This document shows positions 1,777-37,367 of a DNA stretch of 40,221 bases, piece by piece. Position 1 is the stretch's first letter; the number at the start of each line of letters is the position of its first letter. The stretch comes from an uncultured Verrucomicrobia subdivision 3 bacterium (GTDB lineage Bacteria > Verrucomicrobiota > Verrucomicrobiia > Limisphaerales > UBA11358). A model generated the notes under the pieces. That model was not told the origin of the DNA and made no database searches. It was given only the letters and a program-made list of their open reading frames with translations. The stretch lies in assembly GCA_903917705.1 (NCBI GenBank), contig CAIXBQ010000035.1:1-40221 (forward strand), given 5' to 3'. Position numbers and translations under genes: made by a program.

Positions 1777-2293
1777 ACTTGCCACCGTTTTTTACTGAGA
1801 GTCTTGCGAAGCATTGCATTACGCAGAGGTCAACCGAAGTTCAAGAATCAACACTGCTCGCTTACGGGGGGAAGTGTGCCGTGACCGGTTTCGTTGTGAA
1901 GAACTTTTGATTGGCCATAATATGCAAAACAACTGTCAGTAAAAGTGTCAGTAAAACATAAACCAACGGCTGACAAAAAGTTCCAGGCATTACTTGAAAT
2001 GTCAGTAAAATGCATTAGCATCCCTTGTAAATACGTGGTTTTTGAGTCCAAATCCCACCCTTTCCGCCATCTTGATTTTTAAGGCATTTTGATTGCCCAA
2101 ACTTTTAGGGGAAACTCGTAATCCTCCCTGGCAATCAAGACGTCGCCCGCCATCAGGCTGGACAATGAGTCAAGATTTGCGCAGGCAAAGACCAAAGCAA
2201 AGGTTTTCCCCCTGCCCGCAATAAAAACACTTTCACGCAACGGTTGAAGATTAACATTGAATTCGCCTGGTGGGTTTGCTAATTAGCCAGCTA
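1777..2293. other. Divergent intergenic region
   Basis: No convincing gene. It holds the TGTCAGTAAAA repeats and otherwise AT-richer sequence that must contain the promoter for the plus-strand selenoprotein genes. A 6-bp hairpin, TTAGCC (2283-2288) with GGCTAA (2296-2301), places the presumed ATG at 2294 in its loop, which could affect initiation. Confidence 0.4.
1934..2011 (+). repeat. Three copies of a TGTCAGTAAAA element
   Basis: TGTCAGTAAAA occurs at 1934-1944 and 1946-1956 as a tandem 12-mer, and again at 2000-2010. They lie between the cupin operon (minus) and the selenoprotein gene (plus). A related TTTTTTACTGAGA lies at about 1787. They could be binding sites for a regulator; nothing else supports this. 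Confidence 0.4.
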
Positions 2294-4396
2294 ATGGCTA
2301 AGCGAAAACAAGGTTGCTGGTCATGGCATTGGCGGGGAAACGTTCGGGCGGTTTGCTTGACGACCACGCTGCTGGCGGTGCTTTGTTCAGGGCTGATTCT
2401 TCGCGCGGATGATTTTACGCTTTTTAGTTCCCCGGCTACCAACACGACGATCGCCTCGCTGGAATATCTGGAAACGGATTACAGCGTCGTCAATTGGGGC
2501 GTCTCAATGTCGACCCGATCTGCTCCCTTCAAAAATGAGGCGGCGGCGGCGGGCAAAATCGTTCGCGGCAGCTTGAATTTCGGCGGCGATGTCGGCAATT
2601 CCAATTCCATCGACTTCGTCTGGCAGCGCGACGCCGGCAAGCTTTTCCTGGACCTCAATCACAATCAGGATCTGGCCGACGACCCCGCCGGCATCTATTC
2701 GGCGCGGGCGGTAAAGCCAGTTTACTACCAAACCTTCACGAACATCCACCTGCCGCTCAATACTACGGCCGGCAAATGTCAGGTGCTGGCGGACTTCAAC
2801 TTCTGGGACTATAGTTCGCAGCCAAGTTGCAGCCTCGCGGTGCGCTCATTCTGGCAGGGCAGGGTGACGCTACAGGGCCTGGACTGGCAGGCGGGCATCG
2901 TCCATAATATCTTGAACCGAGGCGGTTCCTTTGGCAGCGGCCAGTTGCTTTTGCGGCCGTGGGAAAAACGGAGACAAGCTTTCAGCGCCTACGGCAATGC
3001 GCCTGACGCCGTTCCGTTCACGCAAAAACTTTTTGTGGATGGCCACGCGTATCAAGTGGATTCGATCACTGCTTCAAAAAATGGCGCAGCCAGCCTTGCG
3101 TTGCGATTCACCGAACAGGCCGTCGCGCAGGGTGAATTAAAAATCAACGGCAAATACCTTCAACGTCTGATCCTGTCGGGCGGGCCGTATCTGGTGATAC
3201 TGGATCACCCGGCCGGCGTCGTGCGAGTCCCGGCCGGTACCTACAATCAGCCCACGGTCCGGCTCGAAAACAACGGGATCGAGGCCTTTTGCAATGCGGG
3301 CACATCGCCGCTGGGCAATCGGATCCAGGTGGGCGACAAGAACCCGGTAGAGTTGAACATCGGCGGGCCGTTGACCAATTCTGTCGCCGTCAGCCGCCAC
3401 GGGGAATATTTGCAACTGGATTACCGCCTGGTTGGCGCGGGCGGCGAAACCTATCAACTCGCCAACGAAAACCGCTCCCAGCCGCCGGAGTTTGCCATTT
3501 TCAAAGGCGACAAAAAAATTGCGTCCGGCAAATTCGAGTTTGGTTGAGGGGGCACCTGTTCGCACTCATGGCGAGTGCCTCTTACCGCCGCCGGCAAACT
3601 TACCGTCGTGGCTTCGTCCGACCTCGGCGGATTGGGTTCCAAAGAAGGCACCCTTGTCGCCTACGACTGGGTGCTGCCTGGCGTGGCGCCGTTGTTGCTG
3701 CCGTGGTTGATTATTCTGGGGTTGCTCGCCTTGAGACCCAACCGGTGCGCGAGCGCCTGGCTGATCTGGTTGCCGCTTGCCTGTATCTATGTGCTTACTT
3801 TAACACCGCCGCCGTTCCTGCCGGAGGGAACCGGTTTTGTACTGGATGGCATCTCCGCACTGGCGGTGGGCCTGGCCGCCATCTGGCTCCTGTCAGATTA
3901 TCTGAAACGACAACATCGTTTGCTGACGTTCCTGTGCGTCCTGTTCGCCCTAGCCGGCTTCAGCCTGCTGGCGGCGCTGGCAAAACTTGGTGTGAGCTTG
4001 CTGTCCATCGAATCGCTTCAAACGGGCATCGTGCTGGCGGTCGGGGTTCTGGCCAGCGCGATGGCATTAAGCCTGGCCGGATTGATTTGCCGCGGCCGCC
4101 AGCGTCCGATCGGTCTTTATGCGTGGCTGTTCCTCCTGCTCGCCGGTATCTGGCTGCTGATTGCCGCGCCGTTTTTCGTGATTGCGCTGGTGGCTTTCAG
4201 CGGTGGTATTCGGTGGAGCGAATTCTTCATTCCGGTTTTTGCAGCGGCGACAGTCAATTATATGCTGCTGCTGCCGTTCCTGATTTTATCGTCGGCCAGC
4301 CCATTTTTTCGCGAACGGCTCAAGGCTTTGCTTAACGTGAAGCCGTCCGCACCGCCTTTAATTTCGCCTTTGCCCGATGCCAATTTGAAGACTTGA
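2294..4396 (+). CDS. Novel membrane selenoprotein with UGG(T)C motif (Sec418)
   Basis: Read as one 700-residue protein with an in-frame UGA (3545-3547) translated as Sec. The ATG at 2294 gives a basic N-terminus and a signal/anchor helix (about 20-38). The exported domain includes a Ca-loop-like DLNHNQDLADD (120-130). At 418 comes FEFG-U-GGTCSHSWRVP, with Cys422 four residues after Sec. The same frame stays open for a further 282 codons with about seven hydrophobic helices, ending DANLKT. The paralogue at 4429 has the same motif on both sides of its own UGA, which argues strongly against a stop. A SECIS-like hairpin follows at 3562-3578. Without Sec, the 3' half would be called as a separate gene from the GTG at 3575. 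It is probably an exported thiol/selenol redox protein anchored in the membrane; the substrate is unknown. The next gene begins 32 bp downstream. Confidence 0.88.
3545..3578 (+). promoter_or_regulatory. Sec UGA codon and SECIS hairpin 1
   Basis: UGA at 3545-3547, 14-nt spacer, then GCACTC (3562-3567), loop ATGGC (3568-3572) and GAGTGC (3573-3578): six Watson-Crick pairs. The loop begins 21 nt after the UGA, similar in position to the E. coli fdhF SECIS apical loop. Compared with hairpin 2, the third pair changes from A-U to U-A, a compensatory change, and the fifth from U-A to U-G. Confidence 0.85.
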
Positions 4397-4428
4397 ACCC
4401 GATGATCATATAGATGAAAGGAACAATG

Positions 4429-5703
4429 ATGAAATTTTCAAAAAGCCTGATTCTGGCCGGAATTTTTCTGGCCGCCTCCGCGCTTGCGCAGTCCGAACAA
4501 TGGCTGGAATATCACACCGGCACGGAAGGGCGCGCCTACCACCCGTTTCAGCTCACCACCAATCCACCCCCCGGCATCGTGCTGCCCAAGCTGAATGCTC
4601 CGCCGTTTTTTGCGCGCTGGCTCACGCCGATGGATGCCTCCGGTGGCCGCTGGATGTGTTTTGATCGTACCCGCAAGTCCGGGCCGTATGACCGTCTCTA
4701 CCTCGACAGCAACGGCAACGGCCGACTGGATGATGAAACGCCAGTGCCCGCGCGGCTGGATTCCTTCAACTCATATTTTCCGCCGGTGGCCGTGGTTTTC
4801 AAAGGCGGGGACGGGCCGGTTTCCTACCATCTCGTGTTTCGCTTCTACAAATACGAGAACAGCCCGGCACAGCTGCTGGCCTCTTCCGCCGGCTGGTATG
4901 AAGGCGTGGTAAATTTTGGCGGGCTTAAGAAGCGCATCCAGCTCATTGACGGCAACGTCAACGGCACCTTCAACGACCTCGCGCAAAATCCCTATGACAG
5001 TGACCGTATCCAGGTCGCCGGCGATAAAACCAGCGAGCGTTTTCTGGGAAAGATGCTGGAGGTGGAAGGAAAACTTTTCCGGATCGAGGCCGCTCGCGAC
5101 GGCGCGTTTGTCAAAGTACAAAATGCGGAAAGGGTCCTGCTTGGGGGGGTGCGGGTGCCGGAAACCGTTTCCGAATTCACTGCGTTCGGCGAGAACGGCC
5201 AGTTCGTGCGCAAGCCGGCGAACGGCGAATTCACCCTGCCCGCGGGCAAATATCAGGTCTTCCGCTGGACGATCAACCGCAAGGATGAAAAAGGAGCGGC
5301 GTGGACTATGTCCGGATATAATTTCCCCAAAACCGCCGGCTTTGAAGTCGCAGCCGGTAAGACCGCCGCGCTGGAAATCGGCGAACCGGTGCAGGCCGTC
5401 CTCAAGGTGGACGAAAGGTCCGGACGCCAGCTTGCCTTCAGCCTGAGTTTCGAAGGTCGCCAAAAAGAGGCCATCGAGATGATGCGTGGCGGACAGCGCC
5501 CGCCGGGGCCTAAATTAATGCTGGCCAGCGCCAACGGAACATTGTGTTACACCAATACGTTCGAGTTTGGATGAGGAGGCGTTTGTTCGCTCTCATGGCG
5601 GGAGCCCAAAAATGTGCAGCGTCCGTTGACCGGCAGCGTCAAGATTTCCAGCCCGTTTCAGGTGCTGACGAGTCCGGCGAAGTTGGAAGCCAAACAAGAA
5701 TAA
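4429..5703 (+). CDS. Novel secreted selenoprotein with UGG(V)C motif (Sec382)
   Basis: The start at 4429 is chosen because AGGA (4419-4422) lies six bases upstream; ATGs at 4414 and 4426 are alternatives. The 424-residue product has a clear signal peptide (MKFSKSLILAGIFLAASALAQ). It has a Ca-loop-like DSNGNGRLDD (93-102) and a second acidic Asn/Gly loop, DGNVNGTFND. In-frame UGA at 5572-5574 gives Sec382 in FEFG-U-GGVCSLSWREP, with Cys386, then about 34 more residues to TAA at 5701. The motif matches that of the upstream gene on both sides of the UGA. This one lacks the membrane domain and would be a soluble periplasmic paralogue. A UxxxC pair suggests redox chemistry through a selenylsulfide. 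It is followed by a strong hairpin at 5738. Confidence 0.88.
5572..5605 (+). promoter_or_regulatory. Sec UGA codon and SECIS hairpin 2
   Basis: UGA at 5572-5574, 14-nt spacer, then GCTCTC (5589-5594), loop ATGGC (5595-5599) and GGGAGC (5600-5605): six pairs including one U-G. Spacer length, stem length and loop match hairpin 1, with a covarying third pair. Confidence 0.85.
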
Positions 5704-5737
5704 ACAAACAGCCAGCAACCTTAAAGTGTTTTGGCCG

Positions 5738-5772
5738 GGAGCCGCGCGTTCCAACGCGTGGCTCCTGTTTTT
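5738..5772 (+). terminator. Long GC-rich palindrome plus T tract (terminator or REP-like)
   Basis: GGAGCCGCGCGTT at 5738-5750 pairs with AACGCGTGGCTCC at 5753-5765 over 13 positions (one G-T), followed by TGTTTTT. It lies 35 bp after the selenoprotein stop and 44 bp before the next start, a good site for an intrinsic terminator. The near-perfect palindrome might also be a dispersed REP-like repeat; only one copy is in this window. Confidence 0.65.
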
Positions 5773-5808
5773 GAGGAGCCGAATCAACGGACAACCGATT
5801 AATAAAAT

Positions 5809-8800
5809 ATGAAAACCACGAGACTGATTCTTTTGGCGGCGGCCTTTTCCTTGCTCATCGGCACGGGCTCACGATTATGGGCCCAAGCGCCCGCGACCGG
5901 CATTGTCGCGCCATCCCCCACCGGCGCCGTGGGCGCGGACGTGGCGAACAACGGAAATGAAAGCGGCAAAACCCTGCCCTGGGTGGTTAAATTGAAGCCC
6001 TTTTACAGCCGGGTCTATGTGGGGCCGGATGGCACGAACAGCGCTTTTAACGGGTTTTCCGGGCGGAAGATTCTAGACGGACTGCCGTTCGATATTGACG
6101 GCGAAATTGTGCTGTATGGCAAAAACACACCCGAGGCCGAGAATGAAGTTCAAGGGATGAAGATCGGCCTTAAATTCGACGAGCTTCATCTGATCCATAA
6201 CCTGCAATGGCATGAATATCATGGCTGTCCCGTTGCCCTCATTCGTCTGCACTACGCCGATGGTTCGAATTGCGATTTTACCATGCAATATGACGTGCAG
6301 GTGGCGGCAAACCGGCTGCTGTCGGAGGAAACGGAAACATTGACCGATGCGAATAGCAAACTGATCTGGCGCGGCCCTGGTCCATACAAAGGTGATGCCC
6401 GCTTGTTCAAGACCGTCCTGCACAACCCCTTTCCAGACAAGCTAGTGGACTCCATGGCCGCGATTTCCACCCACAGTCGTTCGTCCTACGTACTGGTGGC
6501 AGCTACGGCAGCCAAAAGCGATCCCGCGCGAGAGATATCTCCGCCCATGCCGCTAAACCAGCCCGCATGGCATTTTGACGGGACTTTGAAAATACGGGTT
6601 GTGGATGAAAAGACGGGTGAGCCTGTCACGAGCGCTGACATTTATCCCTTTATGGACGTGGACGGCAATGGCATCGTGGCCGATCCAGTATTAACCGGAA
6701 GCAACGGGGTGGCGGTGGTGAAATACCCGGTCAGCCGGACAAGTTCTATGGGAATTGGTTTGAGCAAGACCGGCTATCTGGAAAATCGCGGCTATTGGCA
6801 AAACGGTGATATTCCCGAAGAGATCACCTATCGCCTCACCGCTGGAAACACAAGGGTTCAAGGTGTGGTCCGCGCCCCGGACGGACAGCCGGTCGCCGGC
6901 GTGTCGGTGCAGTTGATTGGCGGAAACGGAGCGCGTGGTGAAAACCTCAAGACAGACGCGAATGGAAAATTTGAATTGGATTGGAACCCGCGCCAGTTTC
7001 CTGGCCAAAATGACTCGACCACGTGCGTGCTCGCCCGGGACCCGGAACACAATCTGGCCGCGGTGCAGGACCTGGACGAAGATACCGCCATTCTGGATTT
7101 GAAGCTCGCGCCGGGGCTCACGCTGGCGGGCCGCGCGGAGGCTGGCGGCAAACCGCTCACCAACGCGACCGCGCAAGTGGTTTTCTGGACCGGTCGCAGC
7201 GGCATGTGGCTGCAGGGACTGGCCCGCACCAACACTCCGGGACAGTATGAAATACCCGCGCTGCCGCCCGGCAGAAAGTATGGGGTCGTCGTTTCTGCGC
7301 CGGGTTATGGCCAGAAACAAAATAACAACTTGGATATTTCCTCCGAAGCCGGCCGCCAGGAGCTCGACCCCGTGGAACTCAAGCCGGCCAATCTCCAGCT
7401 TGCCGGCCAAGTGCTCGACGCCGACGACAAGCCGGTCGCGAGCTGCAGCGTGAGCCTTTTCGGCGAAAACCAGCCCGGCGCCAACACCCGCACGGATCGC
7501 GACGGACGTTTTTCATTTAACCACATTTGCGAGGGGACCCTCCACATCTCGGCCAACAGCCTGCGCGCCTTTGGCAATGTTTCCGCCGAGGGCGGAGATA
7601 CGAATGTCGTTTTGCATCTCGGAGAAAACATGGGTTATTCGCCGGATTCCAAACCGCACAAGCTACACGGCGTGGTGACGGATGACGGCGGCCAGCCGGT
7701 CGCCGGCGCGCAGGTGGCGGTGTTTCCAAACAACGGCGCGCGCTGGGTCAAGACTGGAACCAACGGTGAATACAGCCTGAACTGGTCGTTGCAGTCGTGG
7801 CAGATGCAAAACGGCGGGGCGACGCTCGTGCTCCGCGATCCGGCGCACAACCTGGCCGGCACGGAGGAATTGCCGGAAGAAACCACGAACCTCAATGTGA
7901 AATTAAAACCCGCGCTGGTGCTTTCCGGGCAGGTTAAAAATGCCGATGGCTCGCCCTTGGCCTTGGCGCAAGTGGGCTTGTGGCTCAAAGCGGGTAACAG
8001 CTATGACCAGCTGAACGAACAACCGACCATCCCTGTCAACGCGCAAGGCCGCTTTGAGATGATGTGCCTTCCGCCGGATGCTCAATACATCGTATATGCG
8101 TCAGCCAAAGGCTATGGCAAAGCCCAGGATCAGCTGCAGCCGGAATACGAATCAAATCGGGTGGAGCTCGCGCCGTTCGTCCTCAAGCACGCCGAACGGA
8201 TCATCGCCGGACAAGTCCTGAAGGATGACGACCAGCCGGCGTCCGGCGTCAACGTGCAACTCAACGGCGAGGGGCAGCCGGATGGTTACATGACCACCGA
8301 CAGACAGGGCCGGTTTCATTTTCAGGTTTGCGAGGGTCAAATCAGCCTGTCGGCCTATTCACAAAACGGCGGCGGGAACGCGCAGGCGACGGTCGATGCG
8401 GGCGACACCAATATCGTGATGACCATGACCACCGCATCGGGAGAATTCCGCGAGCCGCCGCGCCGCGCCGCGCTCAAGGGCAATCCGCTGCCTGATCTGG
8501 CCGTCGTCAATCTAGCCGCTGCCGCGAAAACCGGCCAACCGGTGCTGCTGTGCCTGTTTGATGCAGCCCAGCGCCCGTCGCGGCATGTCATCAGCCAGTT
8601 GAATCAGCAGGCGGCCGCGCTCAGGCAAAAAAACCTCTGCGTGCTTGGGATCCAGGCCGCTGTCATCAATGATGAACTGTTCAATGCCTGGAAGGGCGCC
8701 AGCCCGGTTGCAGTTCCAGTGGGGCGGGTCATGGAAAAAACCGCGAAAACAAAATGGGCATCCGAAACCGCCGCGCTGCCATGGTTGATTTTGACGGACG

Positions 8801-8874
8801 CCAGCCACAAGGTCGTCGCCGAAGGGTTTTCCTCCGACGATTTGGATGCTCAAATTCAGAAGCTGGCAAAATGA
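5809..8874 (+). CDS. Secreted protein with carboxypeptidase-regulatory-like repeats and a thioredoxin-like C-terminus
   Basis: 1021 residues from ATG 5809; no clear Shine-Dalgarno. A signal peptide (MKTTRLILLAAAFSLLIGTG, ending near WAQ) leads into an unrecognised N-terminal domain of about 200 residues. From about residue 255 to 870 there are repeated Ig-like CarboxypepD_reg modules (examples: VQGVVRAPDGQPVAGVSVQL, LHGVVTDDGGQPVAGAQVAV, IIAGQVLKDDDQPASGVNV), each with a DGxPVAGV turn and a 'TDxxGxF' strand. The last 140 residues look like a redoxin fold (LPDLAVVNL, VLLCLFDAAQRPSRHVISQL, LPWLILTDASHKVV), but the usual CxxC is replaced by AAQRPS, so a catalytic role is doubtful. It follows the two exported selenoproteins in the same direction and may be their partner or scaffold; that is inference. 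Confidence 0.85.
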   Translation: MKTTRLILLAAAFSLLIGTGSRLWAQAPATGIVAPSPTGAVGADVANNGNESGKTLPWVVKLKPFYSRVYVGPDGTNSAFNGFSGRKILDGLPFDIDGEIVLYGKNTPEAENEVQGMKIGLKFDELHLIHNLQWHEYHGCPVALIRLHYADGSNCDFTMQYDVQVAANRLLSEETETLTDANSKLIWRGPGPYKGDARLFKTVLHNPFPDKLVDSMAAISTHSRSSYVLVAATAAKSDPAREISPPMPLNQPAWHFDGTLKIRVVDEKTGEPVTSADIYPFMDVDGNGIVADPVLTGSNGVAVVKYPVSRTSSMGIGLSKTGYLENRGYWQNGDIPEEITYRLTAGNTRVQGVVRAPDGQPVAGVSVQLIGGNGARGENLKTDANGKFELDWNPRQFPGQNDSTTCVLARDPEHNLAAVQDLDEDTAILDLKLAPGLTLAGRAEAGGKPLTNATAQVVFWTGRSGMWLQGLARTNTPGQYEIPALPPGRKYGVVVSAPGYGQKQNNNLDISSEAGRQELDPVELKPANLQLAGQVLDADDKPVASCSVSLFGENQPGANTRTDRDGRFSFNHICEGTLHISANSLRAFGNVSAEGGDTNVVLHLGENMGYSPDSKPHKLHGVVTDDGGQPVAGAQVAVFPNNGARWVKTGTNGEYSLNWSLQSWQMQNGGATLVLRDPAHNLAGTEELPEETTNLNVKLKPALVLSGQVKNADGSPLALAQVGLWLKAGNSYDQLNEQPTIPVNAQGRFEMMCLPPDAQYIVYASAKGYGKAQDQLQPEYESNRVELAPFVLKHAERIIAGQVLKDDDQPASGVNVQLNGEGQPDGYMTTDRQGRFHFQVCEGQISLSAYSQNGGGNAQATVDAGDTNIVMTMTTASGEFREPPRRAALKGNPLPDLAVVNLAAAAKTGQPVLLCLFDAAQRPSRHVISQLNQQAAALRQKNLCVLGIQAAVINDELFNAWKGASPVAVPVGRVMEKTAKTKWASETAALPWLILTDASHKVVAEGFSSDDLDAQIQKLAK

Positions 8875-8909
8875 ATCTGGCTGATTCCGGTTGAATATGT
8901 TTTTTAAAT

Positions 8910-8979
8910 CTGCCCAAATGCTCGCGTGACGCGACGGGCAGAATACTATTGTCATTCGCGCTTCGCTGTTGGCGAAGCG
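8910..8979 (+). other. Two hairpins upstream of tRNA-Sec
   Basis: Hairpin one pairs CTGCCC (8910-8915) with GGGCAG (8936-8941) around an inner TCGCG-TGA-CGCGA stem. Hairpin two pairs CGCTTCGC (8959-8966) with GCGAAGCG (8972-8979) across TGTTG. Neither is followed by a T tract on the plus strand. They may be processing or termination structures between the 5809 gene and the tRNA. Confidence 0.45.
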
Positions 8980-8988
8980 TCCCGGCGC

Positions 8989-9085
8989 GGAGGTGTGGGG
9001 CGACCTGGTGGCGTCCCTGGTCTTCAAAACCAGTGTGGGGCTCAACAAAGTCCCAGGTGGGTTCGATTCCCATCCACCTCCGCCA
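8989..9085 (+). tRNA. selC: tRNA-Sec (anticodon UCA)
   Basis: 97 nt including an encoded CCA end. The acceptor arm pairs GGAGGTG with CACCTCC, with a non-pairing eighth position (T against C) and discriminator G, as in known tRNA-Sec. The anticodon stem CTGGT/ACCAG encloses CTTCAAA, giving anticodon TCA for UGA. The long variable arm contains TGTGGGGC and GTCCCA, and the T arm is GTGGG-TTCGATT-CCCAT. The D stem is extended, with one imperfect pair. It lies between exported-selenoprotein genes and the CPTU protein, next to selD, selB and selA. Confidence 0.95.
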
Positions 9086-9112
9086 AGTTTTTGAACGCGT
9101 GCCCTGGTTGAG

Positions 9113-9487
9113 ATGATTAAACGTATTCCACAGCCGCCGCTTAACCCCGCCATGCGGGCGCGGGAACGCCATGATTTTTGGCCGGGCTTTGTCGTGGTGC
9201 TGGCTGGGATCATTGTGACATTTTGCGGCGTGCGTCATCTGACCGGCGTGGATACCGTGGACGGAAAAACCGCGTGGGAAAGCCAGTTGGTCAAAGCCTT
9301 CTCATCCGGCGGCCTGGAGTTCCCCGATCAAGTCGCGCCGCCGCCGCCGCCGAAACTCGACGAGGTGGCCGATCCCGGCGCGGCGCTGGATCGCTGGGCA
9401 AAACAACAGGCCAATATCCAGCCACCCGCGTGGAAAATCCGGGTGGATTTGGGCGCCAAAGCGGCCTGCCCGACCTGAATAAAATAA
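9113..9487 (+). CDS. Small membrane-anchored selenoprotein ending C-P-T-U-I-K
   Basis: 124 residues if the UGA at 9476-9478 is Sec122. The apparent stop is followed by ATA AAA TAA, giving a C-terminal CPTUIK with Cys119 and Sec122 in a CxxU arrangement like a C-terminal redox centre. One transmembrane helix (about 24-45, FVVVLAGIIVTFCGV) is followed by a proline-rich linker with a run of five prolines and a short soluble tail, probably periplasmic. The hairpin at 9493-9511 has the same loop and position as those after the other Sec codons, although this gene is unrelated to them. It starts 28 bp after tRNA-Sec and precedes a NapH-like polyferredoxin by 12 bp, so the two probably share a transcript and electron flow. 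If UGA is simply a stop, the protein is three residues shorter. Confidence 0.82.
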
Positions 9488-9511
9488 CTTTCCGGCCACA
9501 TGGCGTGGCCG
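9476..9511 (+). promoter_or_regulatory. Sec UGA codon and SECIS hairpin 3 overlapping the next start codon
   Basis: UGA at 9476-9478; CGGCCAC (9493-9499), loop ATGGC (9500-9504), GTGGCCG (9505-9511): seven Watson-Crick pairs. The loop begins 22 nt after the UGA. The TAA ending the selenoprotein lies before the stem. The loop's ATG is the probable start of the downstream polyferredoxin gene, so SelB binding could compete with or couple to its initiation. Confidence 0.8.
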
Positions 9512-10411
9512 ATTATTCGCATGGAATGTCCCGTTCCCCAATGTTCCGAACGGCTGCCGGCAACGCTGGGCCGCAAGTTGTCACGCTTCCGTCCGTGGGC
9601 GCAGGCCGGCTTTCTCGGCGTGTGGCTCGCGCCGGTGGGGCGCTGGCTGCATGGCATTCCCGGCTGCGTGTTCCATTGTTATTCGTGTCCGCTGTCGTCC
9701 TTCGCCTGCCCGGTGGGCGTGATGGCGAATTATGCGGCGCTGCTGCCAGTGGTCGGGGAAGTGCCCTATCTGCTGATCGGCCTGCTGCTGCTCGTCGGCG
9801 CCGTGAGCGGCTCACTGGTCTGCGGCTGGGCGTGTCCGTTCGGCTTTCTCCAAGACTTGCTCGCCAAAATTACCACCAAAAAAGTCATCCTCCCGCCGTG
9901 GATCGGACACTTTCGTTACGTTGTGCTGGTCGGATTGGTGATTCTGCTGCCGATGATTTTGGGCCACTACGGCATTCCGTTTGAACGCCAGGTGATTTCC
10001 ATCTGCCGCTTGTGTCCCGCCGGCGCGCTCGAAGCTGGCTTGCCCTATTCCGCCCAAAGCCTGCTCGCCGGCAACGGCTGGGTGATGAGCGGACTCAAGA
10101 CGGGGATTCTGATTGCGTTTTTCGCCGCCGCAATTTTTATACACCGTCCGTGGTGCCGGATTTTTTGCCCGCTCGGCGGCCTGCTCGCGCTCTTTAACCG
10201 TTTCAGCCTGTTCCATCTCCGGTTCAATCCGAAGGAGTGTGTCGAGTGCAACCTCTGCCGCAGCCGATGCTCGATGGGGGTGAAGGTGGACCAGACCGTG
10301 AACGTCACCGGCTGCATCCGCTGTCTCGAATGCACCACCTGCGGCGCGCTCGAGCCCGGTTTTGCCCTGCCTGCAACCAATGCTGAACCGCCCAAGCCGC
10401 TGGCTACTTGA
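9500..10411 (+). CDS. NapH/YccM-type membrane polyferredoxin
   Basis: 303 residues from the ATG at 9500; ATG 9521 (MECPVPQ) is an alternative, and neither has a good Shine-Dalgarno. Several hydrophobic helices carry membrane-edge cysteine motifs (CYSCPLSSFACPVG, CGWACPFG, CRIFCPLGG), as in NapH and YccM proteins. The C-terminal part is a ferredoxin-like domain with CVECNLCRSRCSMG and CIRCLECTTCG, suited to two [4Fe-4S] clusters. Such proteins move electrons between quinol or cytoplasmic donors and exported redox partners. The preceding gene encodes a small membrane-anchored CxxU selenoprotein, the likeliest partner here (inference). The 3' end overlaps convergent selD by 8 bp. Confidence 0.88.
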   Translation: MAWPIIRMECPVPQCSERLPATLGRKLSRFRPWAQAGFLGVWLAPVGRWLHGIPGCVFHCYSCPLSSFACPVGVMANYAALLPVVGEVPYLLIGLLLLVGAVSGSLVCGWACPFGFLQDLLAKITTKKVILPPWIGHFRYVVLVGLVILLPMILGHYGIPFERQVISICRLCPAGALEAGLPYSAQSLLAGNGWVMSGLKTGILIAFFAAAIFIHRPWCRIFCPLGGLLALFNRFSLFHLRFNPKECVECNLCRSRCSMGVKVDQTVNVTGCIRCLECTTCGALEPGFALPATNAEPPKPLAT

Positions 10412-11993
10412 GCCGCTCGAGGTTTTCCTGGTAAAACATCTTCACCGGCGCGCCGCCCATCGCAATCGCGCACCACGCTGCCTCGTCCAGTTCCGCCTGC
10501 GAAATACCCATCGCGCGCGCTTTGCGAAAATGCACGTCGAAGCACGGCTGACAGCGGCTGCCCACGACCTGGCTGAACAGGATCAATTCTTTGGTCTGCT
10601 CGCTCAACGCGCCGGCCGCCTGCACCGAACGGATCAGCGCACCAAATGCCTTTTGTGATTCAGCGACCGAGCCGGCCCCTGAATCGTTCTGGAATGCGTC
10701 CGCGCAGCAGCCGTCGCCGTGGGGCGCCGACCCTTTTAGGGTGGTATTCATGGGTTTGATCTGCCGCAGTTGTGTGTCTGGATTTGGATTTGAATGGTTG
10801 GTGGTCGAAAGCAGAATCTTCCCGGCTTCGTCGGCGACAATATGGCCGATGACATAACAGCCCGCGCCGCGCTGGGCCAGCGATTGGCTCAATGTTTCCA
10901 GCCGCTCCGGCGCGATGGCGATCAGCAATCCGCCGGAAGTCTGCGCGTCGAACCCCAGGTTCACCGCCGCCTCGTCCACTCCCGGTGCAATGTGGATGGT
11001 GTCGCCGACATACTCGCGGTTGCGCTCAATCGCGCCAGGGATCACCCCTTGTCGCAGCGCATCGAGCGCGCCGTCAAACGTCGGCAGCGCATTGGAATAT
11101 ATCTCCGCGCCCAGCTGGCTCTGGCGCAGCATCCGCCGCAGGTGAGCGAATAACCCAAAGCCCGTGATATCCGTGCAGGCGGATGCGCCGGCTTCCTTCA
11201 TCGCCTCCGACGCCGCGCGATTCAGGACGGTCATGGATATTTCCGCCGCGGCCATCCCGGCCGGAAAATCGCGTCCGATTTGATGGCAAAAGACCAGCAC
11301 CCCCGTGCCCAGCGGCTTGGTGAGTACCATTACGTCACCCGCATTGGGTTGTTCCAGCGCGGCCGCAACGCTGGGATTGATCAAACCCGTGATTGCAAAG
11401 CCGAGTTTGATCTCGTCGCCCTTGACGCTGTGGCCACCGACGAGTGCAACGCCGGCCTGTTTAAAAACTTCCATCGCGCCGTCGAGCATCTGAAAAATGA
11501 TTTCGCCCGGCATTTTCTCGGAGGGAAACGCCAGCACGCTCAGCGCGGTGCGAGGTTCGCCCCCCATCGCGTAAATGTCCGAAAGGCAATTTGCCGCGCA
11601 AATCTTTCCAAACAGCCGCGCGTCGTCCACGCACGGCGTGAACACGTCCACCGTTTGCACGAGGCAGAGATCCTCCGAGATCCGGTAAATCGCCGCATCG
11701 TCGGCAGCGGCCAAGCCGGAAATCACGGCCGGGTCTTCCACCTCCGGCAGCCGCGCCAACACCGCGTCAAGCTCGGCGGGCGATATTTTTGAGGCGCAGC
11801 CGGCATTGCGCACATGCTGCGTCAACTTCACCTGCGCCGCCTCCACCGGCTCCGGGCGCTCGCCGGCGCAGGGGCAGATATTTTGCTCCCGCAACACGTC
11901 GCAGGGACAAGGCCGCCGCACGTCGCAGATGCAGTGGCCCAAAAGCTGGGAGCGCTCCATCACGCGCCGGCGCTTGGCAAAATCAATTTTCAT
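10404..11993 (-). CDS. selD: Selenide, water dikinase fused to an AhpD/CMD domain
   Basis: Makes selenophosphate for Sec-tRNA synthesis. The 529-residue protein has three parts. Residues 1-50 form an unusual Cys-rich segment (C21, C23, C29, C31, C40, C42: CIC, CPC and CPCAG). Residues 55-410 are a SelD core, with the catalytic Cys66 and Lys69 in GCASKISP (E. coli has GCGCK, so the second Cys is Ser), SDIYAMGG, GGHSVKGDE, TDITGFGLFAHL and the late DAQTSGGLL. Residues 415-529 form an AhpD/carboxymuconolactone-decarboxylase-like domain with redox C481-Q-P-C484. An internal ATG at residue 415 has no obvious ribosome site, so a true fusion is preferred. The start overlaps the selB stop as ATGA. 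Confidence 0.93.
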   Translation of the reverse strand: MKIDFAKRRRVMERSQLLGHCICDVRRPCPCDVLREQNICPCAGERPEPVEAAQVKLTQHVRNAGCASKISPAELDAVLARLPEVEDPAVISGLAAADDAAIYRISEDLCLVQTVDVFTPCVDDARLFGKICAANCLSDIYAMGGEPRTALSVLAFPSEKMPGEIIFQMLDGAMEVFKQAGVALVGGHSVKGDEIKLGFAITGLINPSVAAALEQPNAGDVMVLTKPLGTGVLVFCHQIGRDFPAGMAAAEISMTVLNRAASEAMKEAGASACTDITGFGLFAHLRRMLRQSQLGAEIYSNALPTFDGALDALRQGVIPGAIERNREYVGDTIHIAPGVDEAAVNLGFDAQTSGGLLIAIAPERLETLSQSLAQRGAGCYVIGHIVADEAGKILLSTTNHSNPNPDTQLRQIKPMNTTLKGSAPHGDGCCADAFQNDSGAGSVAESQKAFGALIRSVQAAGALSEQTKELILFSQVVGSRCQPCFDVHFRKARAMGISQAELDEAAWCAIAMGGAPVKMFYQENLERLK

Positions 11994-13936
11994 GACAATA
12001 GTTTTTTGGCTTCCGCGCCTGGCGTGCGGTTGTTGCCGGTGCGGACGGTAAACCGGATTTTATCGAGATGATCCACCAGCGGCACGGCGAACTTGCGGCT
12101 CACGCCGAGCGCATCACGGAAATCCATCGTGGAAAATGCCGGCGTTTTTTGGAAAAGTTTCAGCGCGGCTCGCTTGCCGGCTTCCACGGCGTCGCGATGC
12201 ATCCATATTTTTTCGTCCAGTCGCACCAGCACGCTGCGCTCCGCAAGCAGTTTCACGAGCGCCGCCAGACGCGGCGGCGGCTCACCCAGCGCCGCCGCCA
12301 GTTCATCCAGATTTGGCGGCGCCCAGCCGGCGGATTGCAATTTCGCGGCGATCCGATCGCACGCCTTTTGGTCGCGCTCCGGAAGCCATGAACTCCAGCC
12401 CGCCTTCGCCATCAGGGTTCCGTTGCGTTCGAGCCGTTTTGACTGAAGCAGCGATTCCGCCGCCGCGTCCAGAAAAACCGGATCGGTTTTGAGGGTCGAT
12501 CGCAGTTCTTCACGGCTGAGGCCGGCGCGCTCCGGATTGGCGTCGTGGAATTTCTGGATGGCGGCGAGCACGTTTTCCGCCAGCGCCTGAAGCACCGTGC
12601 CATGAATCCAGCCGCCGCCGCCGGCAACGATGAGTTTTTCCGCACGCAGCTGGTCCAGCGCGGCCGCAATTTCCTCAGGGCGATTCCAGCACTTCTTACG
12701 GAGGCTGGCGACGGTGGCGGGCGACTCGCTTTCGCGAACCATCTGTTCGCACCAGCGCAGCGGATTGGTGATGGCCTCGCGCCGGGCGGCAAGCAGGTCG
12801 AGCGTCCATTGTTTTTTGCGGCGCAGGCGCGTGTTGCTCAGGCCCAGGATCTGTCCGCCGCCGATGGTCGTCAGCCCCCCGCCGCCCGCGCCGGCGATGT
12901 TGGCCCGCACGACATACCGTTCGCCGGTCACGAGCGGTATCGGCGAGGCGAGGCGAAGCTGGACAAATTGTTTTTGTCCGCCCGTCATCCTGGTGCCATC
13001 CAGCATCGCCAGCCGCGCCATGACGGAAGCGGTGCCGACATGCAACTGCACTTCAAGGTAGTCCTCGATTTCGGCAGATATGGACTTCAGGATCTGCAAT
13101 TCCGCCTCGGCCATCGTGACCGGCTCGAAAGAATCTGATCCGCAAAGCACCGTGCCCCGCCGCGCGGTATCGTTATCCAGCTCCGGGATGTTTAGCGCGA
13201 TGCATTCGCCGGCGTTGCCTTCCGCGGCGGTTTCGCCATAGACCTGCATCTTGCGAACATGTCCGTGCTTCCCGGCGGGAAGCAGCATGATTTCATCATC
13301 GGGGCAAACCCGCCCGTGCGTGGGAATGCCGGTGATGACCGTGCCCGCGCCGCGGATGGTGAATGAATCCTCAACCCACATACGGAATAACCCGTCACAC
13401 TCGCGTTCGCCGCAGGCGTTCACGACCTGGTTCAGCGAATCAAAAAAACCATCATAGCCTTCGCCGGTGAGGTTCGAAATCGGGCAAATCGGCGCGTTGG
13501 CCAGAAACGTATCCGCCAGCAACCGGCGCAAATCCCGGATCACATGATCCCGGCGCCCGGCGTCCGCCAGGTCGGTTTTCGTCAGCGCCACCAGCCCGTG
13601 ACGCAAGCCCATCAGCGTGAGAATGTGCAGATGCTCATGGGTTTGCGGCATGATCCCGTCATCGGCCGCGACCACGAAAATGACGACATCGATGCCGTGC
13701 GCGCCGGCAACCATGTTCCGGATGAAATCCACATGACCCGGTACGTCCACAATGCCGACCACGCGTTTGTCCGCAAGCTGGCAGGGGGCGAAGCCGAGAT
13801 CAATCGTGAGGCCGCGCTGTTTTTCCTCGGCCAGCGTGTCGGTTTCACAGCCGGTGAGCAGCTTCACCAGCGCGCTCTTGCCGTGGTCCACATGCCCCGC
13901 CGTGCCAAGCATGATATTGCGGCGAACGGCGATCAT
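11990..13936 (-). CDS. selB: Selenocysteine-specific elongation factor SelB
   Basis: 648 residues. It delivers Sec-tRNA to UGA codons and binds the SECIS hairpin. The N-terminal GTPase shows [16 protein letters not shown] (G1), RGLTIDLGF (switch I), DVPGHVDF (G3) and TKTD (G4), followed by beta-barrel domains. The last 250 residues are the winged-helix region expected to hold RNA contacts (for example [13 protein letters not shown] and [20 protein letters not shown]). The start at 13936 overlaps the selA stop as ATGA; an internal ATG eight codons on (MLGTAGHV) would match E. coli SelB more closely. The RNA-binding domain would have to recognise the (A/U)UGGC loops found here. Confidence 0.96.
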
Positions 13937-15330
13937 GCGGCGATCCGTCCCATCGCCGCAGCGACCAGCGGCACTTGTTCATCGGTCAGGGTACGGACAT
14001 CGAGCCGCACGCGGTCAGCCTCGATGCGGCTGAAAACGCAGGCGTCATCCAGCCGCAGCCGCTGGGACAAGTCGCCGGCGCTCAGGTCGGGTAGGGAAAC
14101 CGCCACGGCAAAACTCGGAATCGCCTCGGTCGGTAATGAGCCGCTGCCGAGAAACGCCTCGCTTTCGCGGATTTCAGTTCTGATTCTGGGCTCGGCGGCG
14201 GCAATCAGGCGTGCGAGTTTTTTGGCGCGCGATTTTAAATCCGCCATCGGAGTGGCCATCATCCGATAAGTCGGGTGCTCGCTTCGCAACCGCGCCGGGT
14301 CGCGGAACAGCTGCAGCGTCCGTTCCAGCACCATCAGGCAGGTCTTATCCACGCGGACGGCGCGCATCAGCGGATGTTTGCGCAGTTTGTCAATCAGGAG
14401 TTTTTTGCCGACGATAATGCCGCTCTGGCCCGCGCCGATGAGTTTGTCGCCGCTGAATAAAACAACATCAGCGCCCGCTTCGATAGATTCGCGCACGGTT
14501 GGCTCATGCGGCAAACCGAATTGTTCCAAGCTCACCAGCGCGCCCGCTCCGAGATCGTCGATCAAGGTCAAATTGCGGCGACGGCACAGTTCCGCCAGCT
14601 CGCGCAACGACACTTCGCTGGTGAAGCCGACCACCCGGTAATTGCTCGGATGCGCCCGCAGAATGGCCGACGTGTTTTCCGTGACGGCTTTCTCATAATC
14701 TCTGGGATGGGTGCGGTTGGTCGCCCCGACTTCGACAAGGCGCGCACCGCTTTGCGCCATCACATCCGGCAGCCGGAACGACCCGCCGATTTCGATGAGC
14801 TGTCCGCGCGAGACAATGACTTCCTTCTGCGCCACCAGCGCCGCCAGCGCGAGCATTGTGGCGGCGGCGTTGTTGTTGACGACAGTCGCCGCTTCTGCGC
14901 CGGTCAGCTCCGTCAAAATGTATTCCACCAATTCATCCCGCTCGGTGCGTTCGCCGGTTTCGCGGTCCACGGCCAGGGTGCAATAACCTTTCAGTTCGCC
15001 GAGCATCGAATCCACCACGCCGCATGAAATAACCGCGCGGCCCAACCCGGTATGCAAAATAATGCCGGTGGCATTGATGGCTTCGCGCACCTTCGGCCTG
15101 ATGGCGCAGCTCAGTTTCTTCTCTGCCCGGGCCAAGACATCAGCGGCGGGGACGCCGCCGCTGCGCGACCCGGTCAGGATCTCCTCCCGCAATTCCGCCA
15201 GAGCGCGACGGAGACATTCGGTGACGAGCGGTTGTGGATGCTGCCGCAGCCAGCCAGCGATGGTTTCGTTTTTCAGCAATTCGGTGATTGCTGGAAGCGT
15301 TCGGAGCAATTCCTGTTTTTGGTCCGGCAT
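13933..15330 (-). CDS. selA: L-seryl-tRNA(Sec) selenium transferase
   Basis: 465 residues, the usual size. PLP enzyme converting Ser-tRNA-Sec to Sec-tRNA-Sec with selenophosphate. Recognisable blocks are INATGIILHTGLGRA, VVNNNAAATMLAL, LIDDLGAGAL and the PLP-lysine segment FSGDKLIGAGQSGI. The N-terminal domain (RTLPAITELL) matches bacterial SelA. First gene of selA-selB-selD, joined by ATGA overlaps. The upstream 156 bp separates it from a divergent gene that is itself a candidate selenoprotein, so the two may share a bidirectional regulatory region. No strong Shine-Dalgarno is seen before the ATG at 15330. Confidence 0.96.
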   Translation of the reverse strand: MPDQKQELLRTLPAITELLKNETIAGWLRQHPQPLVTECLRRALAELREEILTGSRSGGVPAADVLARAEKKLSCAIRPKVREAINATGIILHTGLGRAVISCGVVDSMLGELKGYCTLAVDRETGERTERDELVEYILTELTGAEAATVVNNNAAATMLALAALVAQKEVIVSRGQLIEIGGSFRLPDVMAQSGARLVEVGATNRTHPRDYEKAVTENTSAILRAHPSNYRVVGFTSEVSLRELAELCRRRNLTLIDDLGAGALVSLEQFGLPHEPTVRESIEAGADVVLFSGDKLIGAGQSGIIVGKKLLIDKLRKHPLMRAVRVDKTCLMVLERTLQLFRDPARLRSEHPTYRMMATPMADLKSRAKKLARLIAAAEPRIRTEIRESEAFLGSGSLPTEAIPSFAVAVSLPDLSAGDLSQRLRLDDACVFSRIEADRVRLDVRTLTDEQVPLVAAAMGRIAA

Positions 15331-15486: not shown

Positions 15487-15801
15487 ATGGAAGCGAGCCA
15501 TCAAATTCCGCCTGAACCAGGCGGGCCGCAAACGAGCACGGGGCGAATCGGCCTGGGCTTGTCCCTGGTTGCGCCAGTGACGATAGCGCTGATGATGTTG
15601 CTGCATCCGGGATGAGGTTCGCCCATCACAGCCCTTGGCGGGCTGACAATCCTCGTGACGCCTCCGATTGCGCTGGCCGTCAGCATCATCGCATGGGTCA
15701 GAAACGCGAGCCGGCTCGCCGCCATGGCGGGCACGCTGATCAGCAGCTCGATCATCCTGTTGTTTCTCTTCGGCCTGCTGCTGTCGTCGCTCTGCCGGTG
15801 A
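15487..15801 (+). CDS. Candidate 104-residue membrane selenoprotein (Sec43)
   Basis: An ATG at 15487 opens 42 codons (MEASHQIPPEPGG...), then UGA at 15613-15615, then 61 codons to TGA at 15799. Treating UGA as Sec gives a compact protein with three hydrophobic segments, around residues 20-40 (IGLGLSLVAPVTIALMMLL), 50-67 (GGLTILVTPPIALAVSII) and 77-101 (MAGTLISSSIILLFLFGLLL). Hydrophobic helices lie on both sides of the UGA in the same frame. The Sec sits in LHPG-U-GSP at a membrane edge; the only Cys is at 103. A hairpin of the local SECIS type follows. The gene exactly fills the gap between selA (divergent) and the activator gene (convergent, 9 bp away). Alternatives are a nonsense-mutated pseudogene or a sequencing error at a Trp codon. 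Confidence 0.72.
15613..15645 (+). promoter_or_regulatory. Sec UGA codon and SECIS hairpin 4
   Basis: UGA at 15613-15615; CAGCCC (15629-15634), loop TTGGC (15635-15639), GGGCTG (15640-15645): six Watson-Crick pairs, loop beginning 20 nt after the UGA. The loop falls in a different codon phase and encodes different residues than in the other genes, so its similarity is not explained by protein homology. Confidence 0.75.
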
Positions 15802-15810
15802 CCCGGCGGC

Positions 15811-16596
15811 TCACGGTTTTCCCTGGCCCCGCGTGCCGGCAAGCACGGCCGCCCCCAGCGCGCCGGTGAATTGTGGTTGCGGCGCGACGCGGACCGGACA
15901 CGCCAGAACCTCCTCCAGCGCGCGCGCCATGCCGGACTGCAACGCGACCCCGCCGGTAAAAAAAACCGGCGGCGAGATGAATCGACCGGCCAGCGCCGCG
16001 ACCCGTGTGGCAATGGAATTTTGCACGCCGGCCACCACGTCCGGCAACGGCTTCCCGTCGGCCAGCAGGCCGATGATTTCCGTCTCCGCGAACACCACGC
16101 ACATGTTGCTGATAATTGCCGGCTTTGTGCTTTGTTGCGCAAGCATCGAAAGTTTTTCCCAATCCATGTCCAGCCGCAGCGCAACCATTTCCAAAAAACG
16201 CCCCGTGCCGGCGGCGCACCGGTCGTTCATCGAAAAATCGCGAACACGGCCGCCCTCTTCGAGGCTGATGACCTTGCTGTCCTGGCCGCCGATTTCGATG
16301 ATCGTGCGCGCGTCCGGCGCGAGCCGATGGACCCCGCGGGCGTGGCAGGTAATTTCCGTTATGGTGGTATCGGCGAAGCGGATGGCGTTGCGCCCGTAGC
16401 CGGTGGCGACAACCCCGGAAATCTTTGAGCGTTCCAGCCCCGCTTCGCGCAGCAACTTGTCAAAAAGTTCAGCCGCTAACCGCTCCTGTTCCACGCCCTG
16501 GTCGGCCAGGCCGGATGCAAGCGTTCGATTTTGGCTGGTGTCGAACAACACCGCCTTGATGGAACGCGAACCCGCGTCGATGCCGGCGTAAATCAT
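15811..16596 (-). CDS. BadF/HgdC-type ATPase activator of 2-hydroxyacyl-CoA dehydratase family
   Basis: 261 residues, the usual length for HgdC and YjiL. ASKHA-fold ATPase: GIDAGSRSIKAVLFDT (phosphate 1), EIGGQDSKVISLEEGG (phosphate 2) and PVFFTGGVALQSG (adenosine). The two cluster-ligand cysteines of the homodimer are in NDRCAAGTGRFLE and NMCVVFAE. Such activators couple ATP hydrolysis to injection of a low-potential electron into an iron-sulfur partner. It is the last gene of a five-gene operon and overlaps the preceding stop as ATGA; the three iron-sulfur partners are encoded upstream in the same transcript. Confidence 0.94.
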   Translation of the reverse strand: MIYAGIDAGSRSIKAVLFDTSQNRTLASGLADQGVEQERLAAELFDKLLREAGLERSKISGVVATGYGRNAIRFADTTITEITCHARGVHRLAPDARTIIEIGGQDSKVISLEEGGRVRDFSMNDRCAAGTGRFLEMVALRLDMDWEKLSMLAQQSTKPAIISNMCVVFAETEIIGLLADGKPLPDVVAGVQNSIATRVAALAGRFISPPVFFTGGVALQSGMARALEEVLACPVRVAPQPQFTGALGAAVLAGTRGQGKP

Positions 16597-17978
16597 TTGG
16601 TTCTCCTGGCCCGGGCGGTTTCAAATAGCGCCTGCAAACGCGAGCCAAGGGCCGGCAATAGGGCATCACAAACGGGAGGAATTTCAAGCTCGATTGCGGG
16701 GATCCCAAGCCGCAGCCGGACCATGGCGCGGATGATTTCGCCTTCGCGGGCGCAATGGCTCGCGCCGGGAATGCGCGAAACGACCACGACCTCGGCCCGG
16801 CTCGCCTGGCATTCGCGGACGATGCGCGCGCCGCGGTCGGCGGTGGGCCCGGCCATCGGATCGGCCAGCGCGCTGCGGGCGAGCGCCTCCAAGGGCGGCA
16901 GATTCTCGGGAATCAAATCCAGCGCATGCGAGAACATGAAATCCGAGCCGCAGATGCGTCCGCCCAGTTCTTCCAGCAGATTCATCGCGCGCAGATCCGC
17001 AACCGGATTCACCCAGTAAGTCCGCACCGCCTGCGCGTTGACACTGAACCGGCCTAGCCGGATGCGGGCCTGCGCCTCGGCCAGCAAGGCATCGAGCACG
17101 ACGATGGTTTCCGCACGATCGGAGCAGAAATGGATGGCGAGCATTTCCGCCACCAGCATCTCCAACGCGGGCAGCGGGGCGGCGGGCGCAGCATAGACGG
17201 ATTTCCGCAGCGCGCCGAGCCGGCGGCGCACTTGATTGGCAATGCGGATGCCGTTTGCCAGCAAATCATCATCCAGTGTTTCCCCCGCCAGGCCGCCGAG
17301 CGCTTCGCCAACGCGCTGTAGTTCCGACTGCACACAGTCCACCTGGATTTTTGGCGCCGCCAGATTCCCAGGAAGGTCACAAACGGGTTCGGCGGCGGCG
17401 GGCGGGCGGCGGCGCGGGATTTCCCACCACAAAATCGCATGCCCGAGGTGTTCCAACCGTTGCGCGATGGCGGAAAAATCGTCACAGACCGCGCCGGTGC
17501 TGCACACCAGCAAATCCGGCTTTGGAAAATGTTCGCCGTTCTCGAAGGCCGGCAACATCGCGCGCACTGGACAAAACGAGGCGTCAACGCCCATTGCTTC
17601 GGCCTGCTGCAACAGCCGGTCGCTGCATTCCATGAGGCACGGCGTCCACCACGCGCCGTCGGGATAAAACGCCCTCAGGCCCGGCAGCGAATACGCCATG
17701 ACCGGCACGGTGCCGAGGTCCTTCATCGTGCCGACTATCTTTTCGCCGCCGGCGCGGGCCCGATGCAGCCGCTCGTTTTCCGTCAGCAAAAAATTCCAGA
17801 GCCGGAGCGCGGCCGGCGAGTTATCGAACTGAAGTTGTTCCAGTCGATAATCTTTTCCGCGGACGACGTGGCGACGCAACGGGCCGCCGTAAGCCGGTTC
17901 GCGCAGGCCGTTCCGCTGTAATTCCTCGTAACGGTCATCCCACCCGGACAAATCCAGTTTGCGCGGCGCGACATTCAT
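16593..17978 (-). CDS. 2-hydroxyacyl-CoA dehydratase-like large subunit
   Basis: 461 residues, close to HgdA-type subunits. Clustered cysteines in the first half (WTPCLMEC, ASFCPVRAML, LVCSTGAVCDD) resemble the Cys ligands of the dehydratase [4Fe-4S] cluster, with CSTGAVCDD like the family's S-x-C-D segment. The second half has a further C-terminal domain with VVVSRIPGASHC and IPAIELEIPP. It overlaps neighbours on both sides by ATGA, and the next gene upstream is a shorter homologue, so the two look like an alpha/beta pair served by the activator. No acyl-CoA transferase or other acyl-CoA enzyme is nearby, so the substrate need not be a CoA ester. Function unknown. Confidence 0.82.
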   Translation of the reverse strand: MNVAPRKLDLSGWDDRYEELQRNGLREPAYGGPLRRHVVRGKDYRLEQLQFDNSPAALRLWNFLLTENERLHRARAGGEKIVGTMKDLGTVPVMAYSLPGLRAFYPDGAWWTPCLMECSDRLLQQAEAMGVDASFCPVRAMLPAFENGEHFPKPDLLVCSTGAVCDDFSAIAQRLEHLGHAILWWEIPRRRPPAAAEPVCDLPGNLAAPKIQVDCVQSELQRVGEALGGLAGETLDDDLLANGIRIANQVRRRLGALRKSVYAAPAAPLPALEMLVAEMLAIHFCSDRAETIVVLDALLAEAQARIRLGRFSVNAQAVRTYWVNPVADLRAMNLLEELGGRICGSDFMFSHALDLIPENLPPLEALARSALADPMAGPTADRGARIVRECQASRAEVVVVSRIPGASHCAREGEIIRAMVRLRLGIPAIELEIPPVCDALLPALGSRLQALFETARARRTK

Positions 17979-18937: not shown

Positions 18938-18950
18938 TGGCGCGCCCCCC

Positions 18951-20905: not shown

Positions 20906-20955
20906 GGTGTTCTCTCGGAGGCCAGCGGCGCTACACATAATGCGGAACAAGACCT

Positions 20956-27005: not shown

Positions 27006-27348
27006 TGGGTTTTATTATTATATTTAAATTTCTGGGCACTTCAAATCACAAATCAAGATCCAATCCGGAGACAAAGAGTCAATCCGACAGTTTCGTGGAT
27101 ATTGTCACTGTCAACAGCCGCAATCGCGCACCTCCGCAACTACTTGATCGGCATGTTGGGTTGAGACATTGATCCGGATTAGATTTCCGCCGGCTTCTCA
27201 TGCCGTTGGCGACGGTACGGGGGATATTCTGAACTTCGAACAGCCGTCCGCACGCAATCGACACCTGATTTTGCAGTTGTTGATTCAGTGGTGGAATCTT
27301 TCTAAGCAATTAACTCAATGCCACTTCGCAGGCAAGGCCTCCGACTTT
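27006..27348. other. Intergenic region
   Basis: 343 bp between two minus-strand secreted-protein genes. AT-rich next to the downstream start (TTATTATTATATTTAAAT around 27008-27026), which may supply a -10 element. A 76-codon reading frame here has no recognisable features and is not called. Confidence 0.4.
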
Positions 27349-31158: not shown

Positions 31159-31269
31159 GGATTCAAATAAGGCGATGGCACAACCGGCGATTCAGCCTCT
31201 GCGCAGTGGGAAAAACATCCCGTCGTAAACCAAACCGGCAGGATGTCGCAACCACAGCGACCCGGGATA

Positions 31270-37263: not shown

Positions 37264-37367
37264 GGTTTTTTTTGAATTTAATTGGCTGAATGAAGTCTTG
37301 GCTGATTTGAACGTGACTTGCAGGAAATGGAAATATTTTGGAGTCGGAGTGTGGTTTTTGGTGTTAT

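Follow-up and report, generated by a model that had tools for sequence, protein, structure and literature searches.

A candidate selenoprotein family with a GUGG motif and a covarying downstream hairpin in Verrucomicrobiota

Analysis of a 40,221-nucleotide (nt) stretch of verrucomicrobial DNA (positions 1 to 40,221 of contig CAIXBQ010000035.1, hereafter the window) revealed two tandem genes, A and B, whose in-frame UGA codons (at 3545 in A, at 5572 in B) are, judging from comparative sequence evidence, almost certainly read as selenocysteine (Sec, U). Both genes and their relatives are here named the GUGG family. The wider proposal is that Sec is inserted into two predicted exported paralogues with a predicted Ig-like fold and acts there as an extracytoplasmic redox selenol, a relay of electrons from neighbouring gene products being favoured, not required; to this statement as a whole we assign a probability of roughly 0.7. 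Sec insertion itself is already known, whereas the GUGG family, its apparent lack of cysteine (Cys) forms and the loop class of its hairpins are new. The source assembly is 66% complete and consists of 167 contigs.

Two tandem genes with in-frame UGA codons

Gene A (2294..4396, + strand) and gene B (4414..5703, +) encode the β-rich proteins A (P0001) and B (P0002), both predicted to be exported from N-terminal hydrophobic stretches judged by eye. The TGA of gene A (3545..3547, +; Sec at codon 418) and that of gene B (5572..5574, +; codon 387) are in frame and occupy the matching place of a common motif, with FEFG before the codon and, in the same frame, GGTCSHSWRVP (A) or GGVCSLSWREP (B) after it. 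Past Sec, gene A continues into a hydrophobic C-terminal region, for which some seven long helices are predicted, and ends at its own TGA; protein B has a 42-residue tail. Ordinary open reading frame (ORF) calling yields ORFs at 2270-3547 and 4414-5574 plus a separate one at 3575-4396. A preliminary description of this DNA had proposed an in-frame UGA within a shared motif of both tandem genes, with the frame conserved past it, and had foreseen this gene-calling outcome (stops at 3547 and 5574, a separate ORF from 3575); coordinates and sequence agree with the former, and the latter was reproduced. Its further claims, namely that A and B are tandem paralogues of a new selenoprotein family and that gene A reads through into a membrane domain, are backed by homologues, hairpin covariation and co-occurrence with tRNA-Sec. 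Neither P0001 nor P0002 has a Pfam match to E 0.1 or an NCBIfam match to E 5.

Conservation of the GUGG family across the UGA

Read-through searches were run over 288 genomes of the phylum and, in a second round, over 387. The 387-genome search returned 21 matches, seven of which contain no stop and were set aside as covering the N-terminal part only (last position 241 of 436). The other 14, from 10 of the 387 genomes (the window's own included), span the motif, each with exactly one TGA inside. The sole relative from a genome-contig search, Verrucomicrobia subdivision 3 assembly UBA7542, has both genes and both TGAs. This brings the family to 16 members in 11 verrucomicrobial assemblies; G218:C115, whose contig ends before the motif, was left out of the counts. 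At the Sec site the codon is TGA in 16 of 16 members, never TAA or TAG.

Two protein alignments (9 and 11 rows) show G-U-G and a Pro eleven residues on to be invariant, and in the second, which holds B-type and short forms, a Phe of the tail is invariant as well. Across five close pairs, the ratio of nonsynonymous to synonymous differences (pN/pS) is below 1 on both sides of the UGA; downstream of it, and also beyond the hairpin described below, uncorrected values of 0.31-0.63 indicate purifying selection in the same frame. The tail of B and the short forms has about 40-50 residues and is therefore too little for a separate gene. Eleven of 16 members have a Cys four residues after Sec; those of genomes G238, G347, G371, G288 and G180 lack it. 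The preliminary description had suggested that Sec and this Cys form a selenylsulfide; since 5 of 16 members lack the Cys, the pairing is not general and is ruled out as a common mechanism.

A hairpin at a fixed distance from the UGA

In each of the 16 members, the region from roughly +18 to +34 relative to the UGA can fold into a stem of 6-8 base pairs (bp) capped by a 5-nt loop, with a one-base shift in three of them. In the window, these hairpins, which resemble a selenocysteine insertion sequence (SECIS), lie at 3562..3578 (+) in gene A and 5589..5605 (+) in gene B, each with a 6-bp stem and the loop AUGGC. After the other TGAs of the same 12 sequences, such a stem (at least 6 bp, 5-nt loop, fixed distance) occurs in 55 of 6085 cases (0.9%). 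When the hairpins are aligned, 89.6% of cells pair and 18 cells are changed on both sides, giving a covariation of 0.542 against a shuffled mean of 0.190; none of 500 shuffles reaches this value, every slid version is lower and RNAalifold selects the same helix. The preliminary description had noted matching hairpins, and these prove to be part of a structure that covaries across the family.

The bacterial SECIS (bSECIS) model, as given in section 5 of PMC13188914, specifies a loop of 3-9 nt, a stem of 4-16 bp, a spacing of 16-37 nt, a G in the first two loop positions and a minimum free energy of at most -7.5 kcal/mol. The 5-nt loop, 6-8 bp stem and spacing of 19-21 nt lie within these ranges in all 16 hairpins, and the 40 nt after the UGA fold at -9.8 to -16.4 kcal/mol in all 16, the minimum-energy fold not always being the conserved hairpin. 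A G stands in the first two loop positions in 8 of the 16. Rfam SECIS families have no match in the window at gathering score, nor in 3400-9600 at E up to 5. The case for the hairpin rests on comparison, not on energy.

Selenocysteine machinery and co-occurrence with tRNA-Sec

The local Sec system named in the preliminary description is borne out, with tRNA-Sec, SelA, SelB and SelD all encoded in the window. The tRNA-Sec gene (selC; 8989..9081, +) scores 71.2 bits with RF01852, in agreement with ARAGORN, and domain or profile matches identify SelD (10404..11993, -), SelB (11990..13936, -) and SelA (13933..15330, -). SelD looks to be an unusual fusion, with a Cys-rich extension at its N terminus and a CMD/AhpD-like domain at its C terminus. 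TGA remains an ordinary stop here, ending selA, selB and gene A itself.

Because RF01852 also picks up Ser tRNAs, it has matches in 386 of the 387 genomes at E 0.001 and exceeds the Rfam cut-off in 139. The cut set in this analysis, at least 57 bits, retains 24 of the 387 genomes, the next score being 54.2. All 10 motif genomes are among these 24, each at 65 bits or more; ignoring ancestry, the p-value of the co-occurrence is 1e-13 with 24 Sec genomes, 2e-13 with 25 and 3e-5 with all 139. ARAGORN, applied to 18 places, called tRNA-Sec in nine of nine above the cut and tRNA-Ser in eight of nine below it. Genome G055 (53.8 bits, below the cut) has a tRNA-Sec according to ARAGORN and no GUGG match, so that Sec genomes number at least 25 of 387. 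The window's own genus is represented in the set by a single genome, the 97% complete G295, whose RF01852 match is a tRNA-Ser and which has no GUGG match.

Predicted structure and comparison with known selenoproteins

The AlphaFold2 model of protein B places Sec 387 in a turn of an Ig-like sandwich, with all-β surroundings; the model of protein A is poor (predicted local distance difference test 61.6). At E 0.001 or better, Foldseek matched no PDB entry, and VIA-align of region 325-426 gave middling Z scores (best 6.6, for 8ayh_C over 89 residues at a root-mean-square deviation of 2.8), so the assignment goes no further than "Ig-like". DUF1573 is likewise an Ig-like sandwich. The selenoprotein of that family (PF07610) is listed in Table 1 of PMC13188914 with another motif, UGC. 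Thioredoxin-fold selenoproteins carry UxxC or CxxU and differ from the GUGG proteins both in motif and in the all-β model around Sec. GUGG fits the letters of the motif GUxG given in the same table for hypothetical protein DG (NF049953); this 172-position model has no match at E up to 5 in P0001, P0002 or two short forms, and a search of the window's genome with it gave no match, its controls being silent too.

Table 1 of PMC13188914 (2026), which covers 119 prokaryotic selenoprotein families and subfamilies, has no entry that could be matched to the GUGG family. According to the preliminary description, no named selenoprotein family is known to have this motif. No description of the family was found in the literature searched, which comprised few subscription papers and no preprints. 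The GUGG genes share an in-frame UGA, a hairpin just downstream and Sec machinery in the genome with the bSECIS-decoded genes of the model in section 5 of PMC13188914; they differ in that no Cys homologue was found and in the AUGGC or AUGGA loop of 8 of 16 hairpins.

CPxU selenoproteins, a polyferredoxin and hairpin loop types

A second new type of candidate selenoprotein in the window, the CPTU gene (9113..9487, +), encodes a small membrane-anchored protein ending in ACPT-U-IK, with its TGA at 9476-9478. Its SECIS-like hairpin (9493..9511, +; 7-bp stem, loop AUGGC, z -3.5) lies 3' of the gene's TAA, and coding therefore cannot explain it. A NapH/NosR-like polyferredoxin membrane protein (Fer4_5; 9500..10411, +) was identified by domain or profile match. 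It resembles the NapH/MauN and NosR polyferredoxins in having partial-length matches to TIGR02163 and NF046105; it differs in that the scores of 42.7 and 43.7 bits are far under the cut-offs of 213 and 1000, and in being partnered with CPxU and GUGG selenoproteins.

CPTU-type relatives occur in G056, G374 and G214. In G056 and G374, genes A and B are immediately preceded by the pair of CPTU and polyferredoxin genes. A single contig of G214 carries tRNA-Sec, a CPTU protein, a polyferredoxin and a CPTUGG protein, the GUGG gene lying on another contig. Another CPxU type, CP[ST]UGGxGGY (DKMCPS-U-GGxGGYxGEV), gave 15 matches, 12 of them with one TGA, from 10 of 25 genomes searched, and three with none, including L081, which has neither Cys nor Sec. 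The read-through matches are at L035:4630-5220 and L036:3170-3757 (both -), L072-L080 and L082; the L035 protein has no NCBIfam match. Members of this type have strong hairpins, mostly with the loop CGGUG, and often stand beside a polyferredoxin and a tRNA-Sec.

Ten genomes have a Fer4_5 polyferredoxin adjoining a CPxU gene (the window's, G056, G374, G371, G288, G347, G214, G245, G250 and G359); none was seen within 1.5 kb in 6 of the 13 loci L070-L082. G371 and G288 each have a cluster of polyferredoxin, CPSU, GUGG, tRNA-Sec and HGD-D genes, which in G371 also includes selA and selB. GUGG genes lie near a NapH-like polyferredoxin and a CPxU selenoprotein gene in 5 of 11 assemblies. CPxU proteins are present in 9 of 10 GUGG genomes as opposed to 4 of 14 without GUGG (24 genomes; Fisher p 0.005, ancestry ignored).

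The hairpin loop is AUGGC or AUGGA in both A and B of the window, UBA7542, G056 and G374; a CPTU gene was seen in three of these assemblies, each time with the loop AUGGC. Other assemblies have the GUGG loops CGGGC, CGUGN or GGGUC and the CPxU loops CGGUG, CGUUG or AGGUG. Loop type follows the genome, not the gene, which would fit recognition by each genome's SelB. We trained a covariance model on 13 of the 16 GUGG hairpins (those of G238 and G180 and one of G218 were omitted for register) and ran it over 233,850 bases; after the training sequences, six CPxU and two of the three held-out GUGG hairpins precede the first false match, at weak E-values of 0.007 to 1.3. At E up to 5, the model lists 8 of 16 CPxU hairpins and misses the third held-out GUGG hairpin. 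A pattern scan for AUGGC loops in the window's own genome gave 71 matches; among 30 examined, four have a stem of at least 6 bp, and three of these are the window sites.

Proposed function and alternative readings

We propose that the predicted SelA, SelB, SelD and tRNA-Sec of the window decode the UGA as Sec, yielding two paralogous, predicted exported proteins in which Sec would sit in a turn of the predicted Ig-like β-sandwich and act as an extracytoplasmic redox-active selenol. Electrons from the co-encoded NapH-like membrane polyferredoxin may pass via the small CPxU selenoprotein to the GUGG protein, which would serve as a terminal reductase or peroxidase. A redox role is suggested by the polyferredoxin and CPxU genes nearby in five assemblies and by the motif-less relatives of the N-terminal part, which end in an AhpC/TlpA-type thioredoxin domain in four of five tested (seven found); we consider the chances of such a role to be even. 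The particular relay from polyferredoxin through CPxU to GUGG is more tentative, with the odds leaning against it. Less probable still is the full picture of a Sec-only family without Cys counterpart, a divergent AUGG-loop SECIS class following the host genome and an undescribed trans-envelope selenol relay in Verrucomicrobiota.

The main rival accepts Sec insertion and holds the residue to be metal- or ligand-binding, or structural, in a secreted β-sandwich protein, and not a redox catalyst. It would account for the lack of a conserved partner Cys and for a domain that is Ig-like, not thioredoxin-like, and N-terminal D-x-N-x-N-type repeats, read by eye, suggest ion binding; however, polyferredoxin and CPxU selenoproteins adjoin, sister proteins carry thioredoxin domains at the same place, and we regard this explanation as rather unlikely.

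Profile searches of 5.8 billion predicted proteins returned 497 and 11 relatives. In all 131 relatives listed, the last residue is exactly the one preceding the UGA (the final four being FEFG in 116, FEYG in 11, FAYG in three and MEYG in one); the few entries with a named source are assigned to Verrucomicrobiota, Verrucomicrobiae or Lentisphaerae. Homologues that consistently end at FEFG, without conservation downstream, are what the preliminary description had named as speaking against its proposal. The listed proteins do end there, but all 16 members with readable DNA continue, conserved, in frame; for this reason the database ends look like annotation artefacts, and annotation probably truncates the GUGG family. 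If instead the UGA were a true stop, the proteins would end at FEFG and the rest of gene A would be a separate membrane protein from 3575, in line with these database entries and with the two pieces found by gene callers. Such a stop leaves the conservation after the TGA unexplained, which extends to the tails of B and the short forms, as well as the invariable use of TGA, the covarying hairpin and the co-occurrence with tRNA-Sec, and is very improbable. That an ordinary residue (Trp or Cys) is inserted, owing to a suppressor or an altered code, would satisfy in-frame conservation, which alone demands no more than read-through, but is barely credible given the nearby tRNA-Sec, selA, selB and selD genes, a hairpin at SECIS distance and the ordinary genes that TGA still terminates.

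Several observations weigh against Sec insertion with a redox function as proposed here. Eight of the 16 hairpins, both of the window's included, break the loop-G rule of the bSECIS model. Four pairs are changed on both sides, a count that 147 of 500 shuffles attain as well; when 11 GUGG hairpin regions were folded in isolation, 2 had a z below -2 relative to shuffles, and the minimum-energy fold of the B region is a structure other than the conserved hairpin. Model confidence for protein B is 66-67 around Sec and 36-56 in the tail, and no resolving partner Cys is common to the GUGG members. GUGG genes are not near a polyferredoxin in 5 of 10 searched motif genomes, no CPxU protein was found in G180, and the assemblies are drafts. 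Finally, according to PMC13188914, nearly all selenoproteins have a Cys form, whereas none was found for GUGG among the 131 listed proteins or among the motif-spanning matches from the search of 387 genomes, all belonging to one phylum; the proof by Cys-for-Sec homologues that the preliminary description had envisaged did not materialise. A further search with residues 372-429 of P0002 gave no Cys candidate and was not counted; it was blind, since the truncated relatives mostly carry LCYTNTFEFG and should have surfaced.

Section 6 of PMC13188914 describes two discovery routes for selenoproteins, Cys/Sec pairing and SECIS detection. The GUGG family would escape both, because it has no Cys form found and its loops break the SECIS rule in half of the cases. 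Within a family that has 497 relatives in one profile search, every inspected entry is cut just before the key residue. Should such Sec-only families be common, prokaryotic selenoproteomes would be under-counted. The gene neighbourhood offers a testable, possibly new route for electrons across the cell envelope.

Other genes in the window

Between gene B and tRNA-Sec, a gene at 5809-8874 (+) encodes a protein of repeated CarboxypepD_reg domains, the end of which weakly resembles AhpC/TSA (16.3 bits, below the cut-off). A small hydrophobic ORF at 15487-15801 (+), a possible third candidate gene, reads LMMLLHPG-TGA-GSPITALGG, with a TGA at 15613 past which the frame continues and a 6-bp hairpin with the loop UUGGC; no relative was found in the other 24 genomes searched. 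Beside the sel genes, 15811-20950 (-) encodes an acyl-CoA dehydratase-type activase and a double-cubane reductase (408 bits with NF040772), together with two weaker relatives; in G371 and G288, too, HGD-D genes lie close to the GUGG genes. The stretch 21243-37482 (-) holds three consecutive giant ORFs, with lengths of 1920, 1269 and 2070 amino acids.

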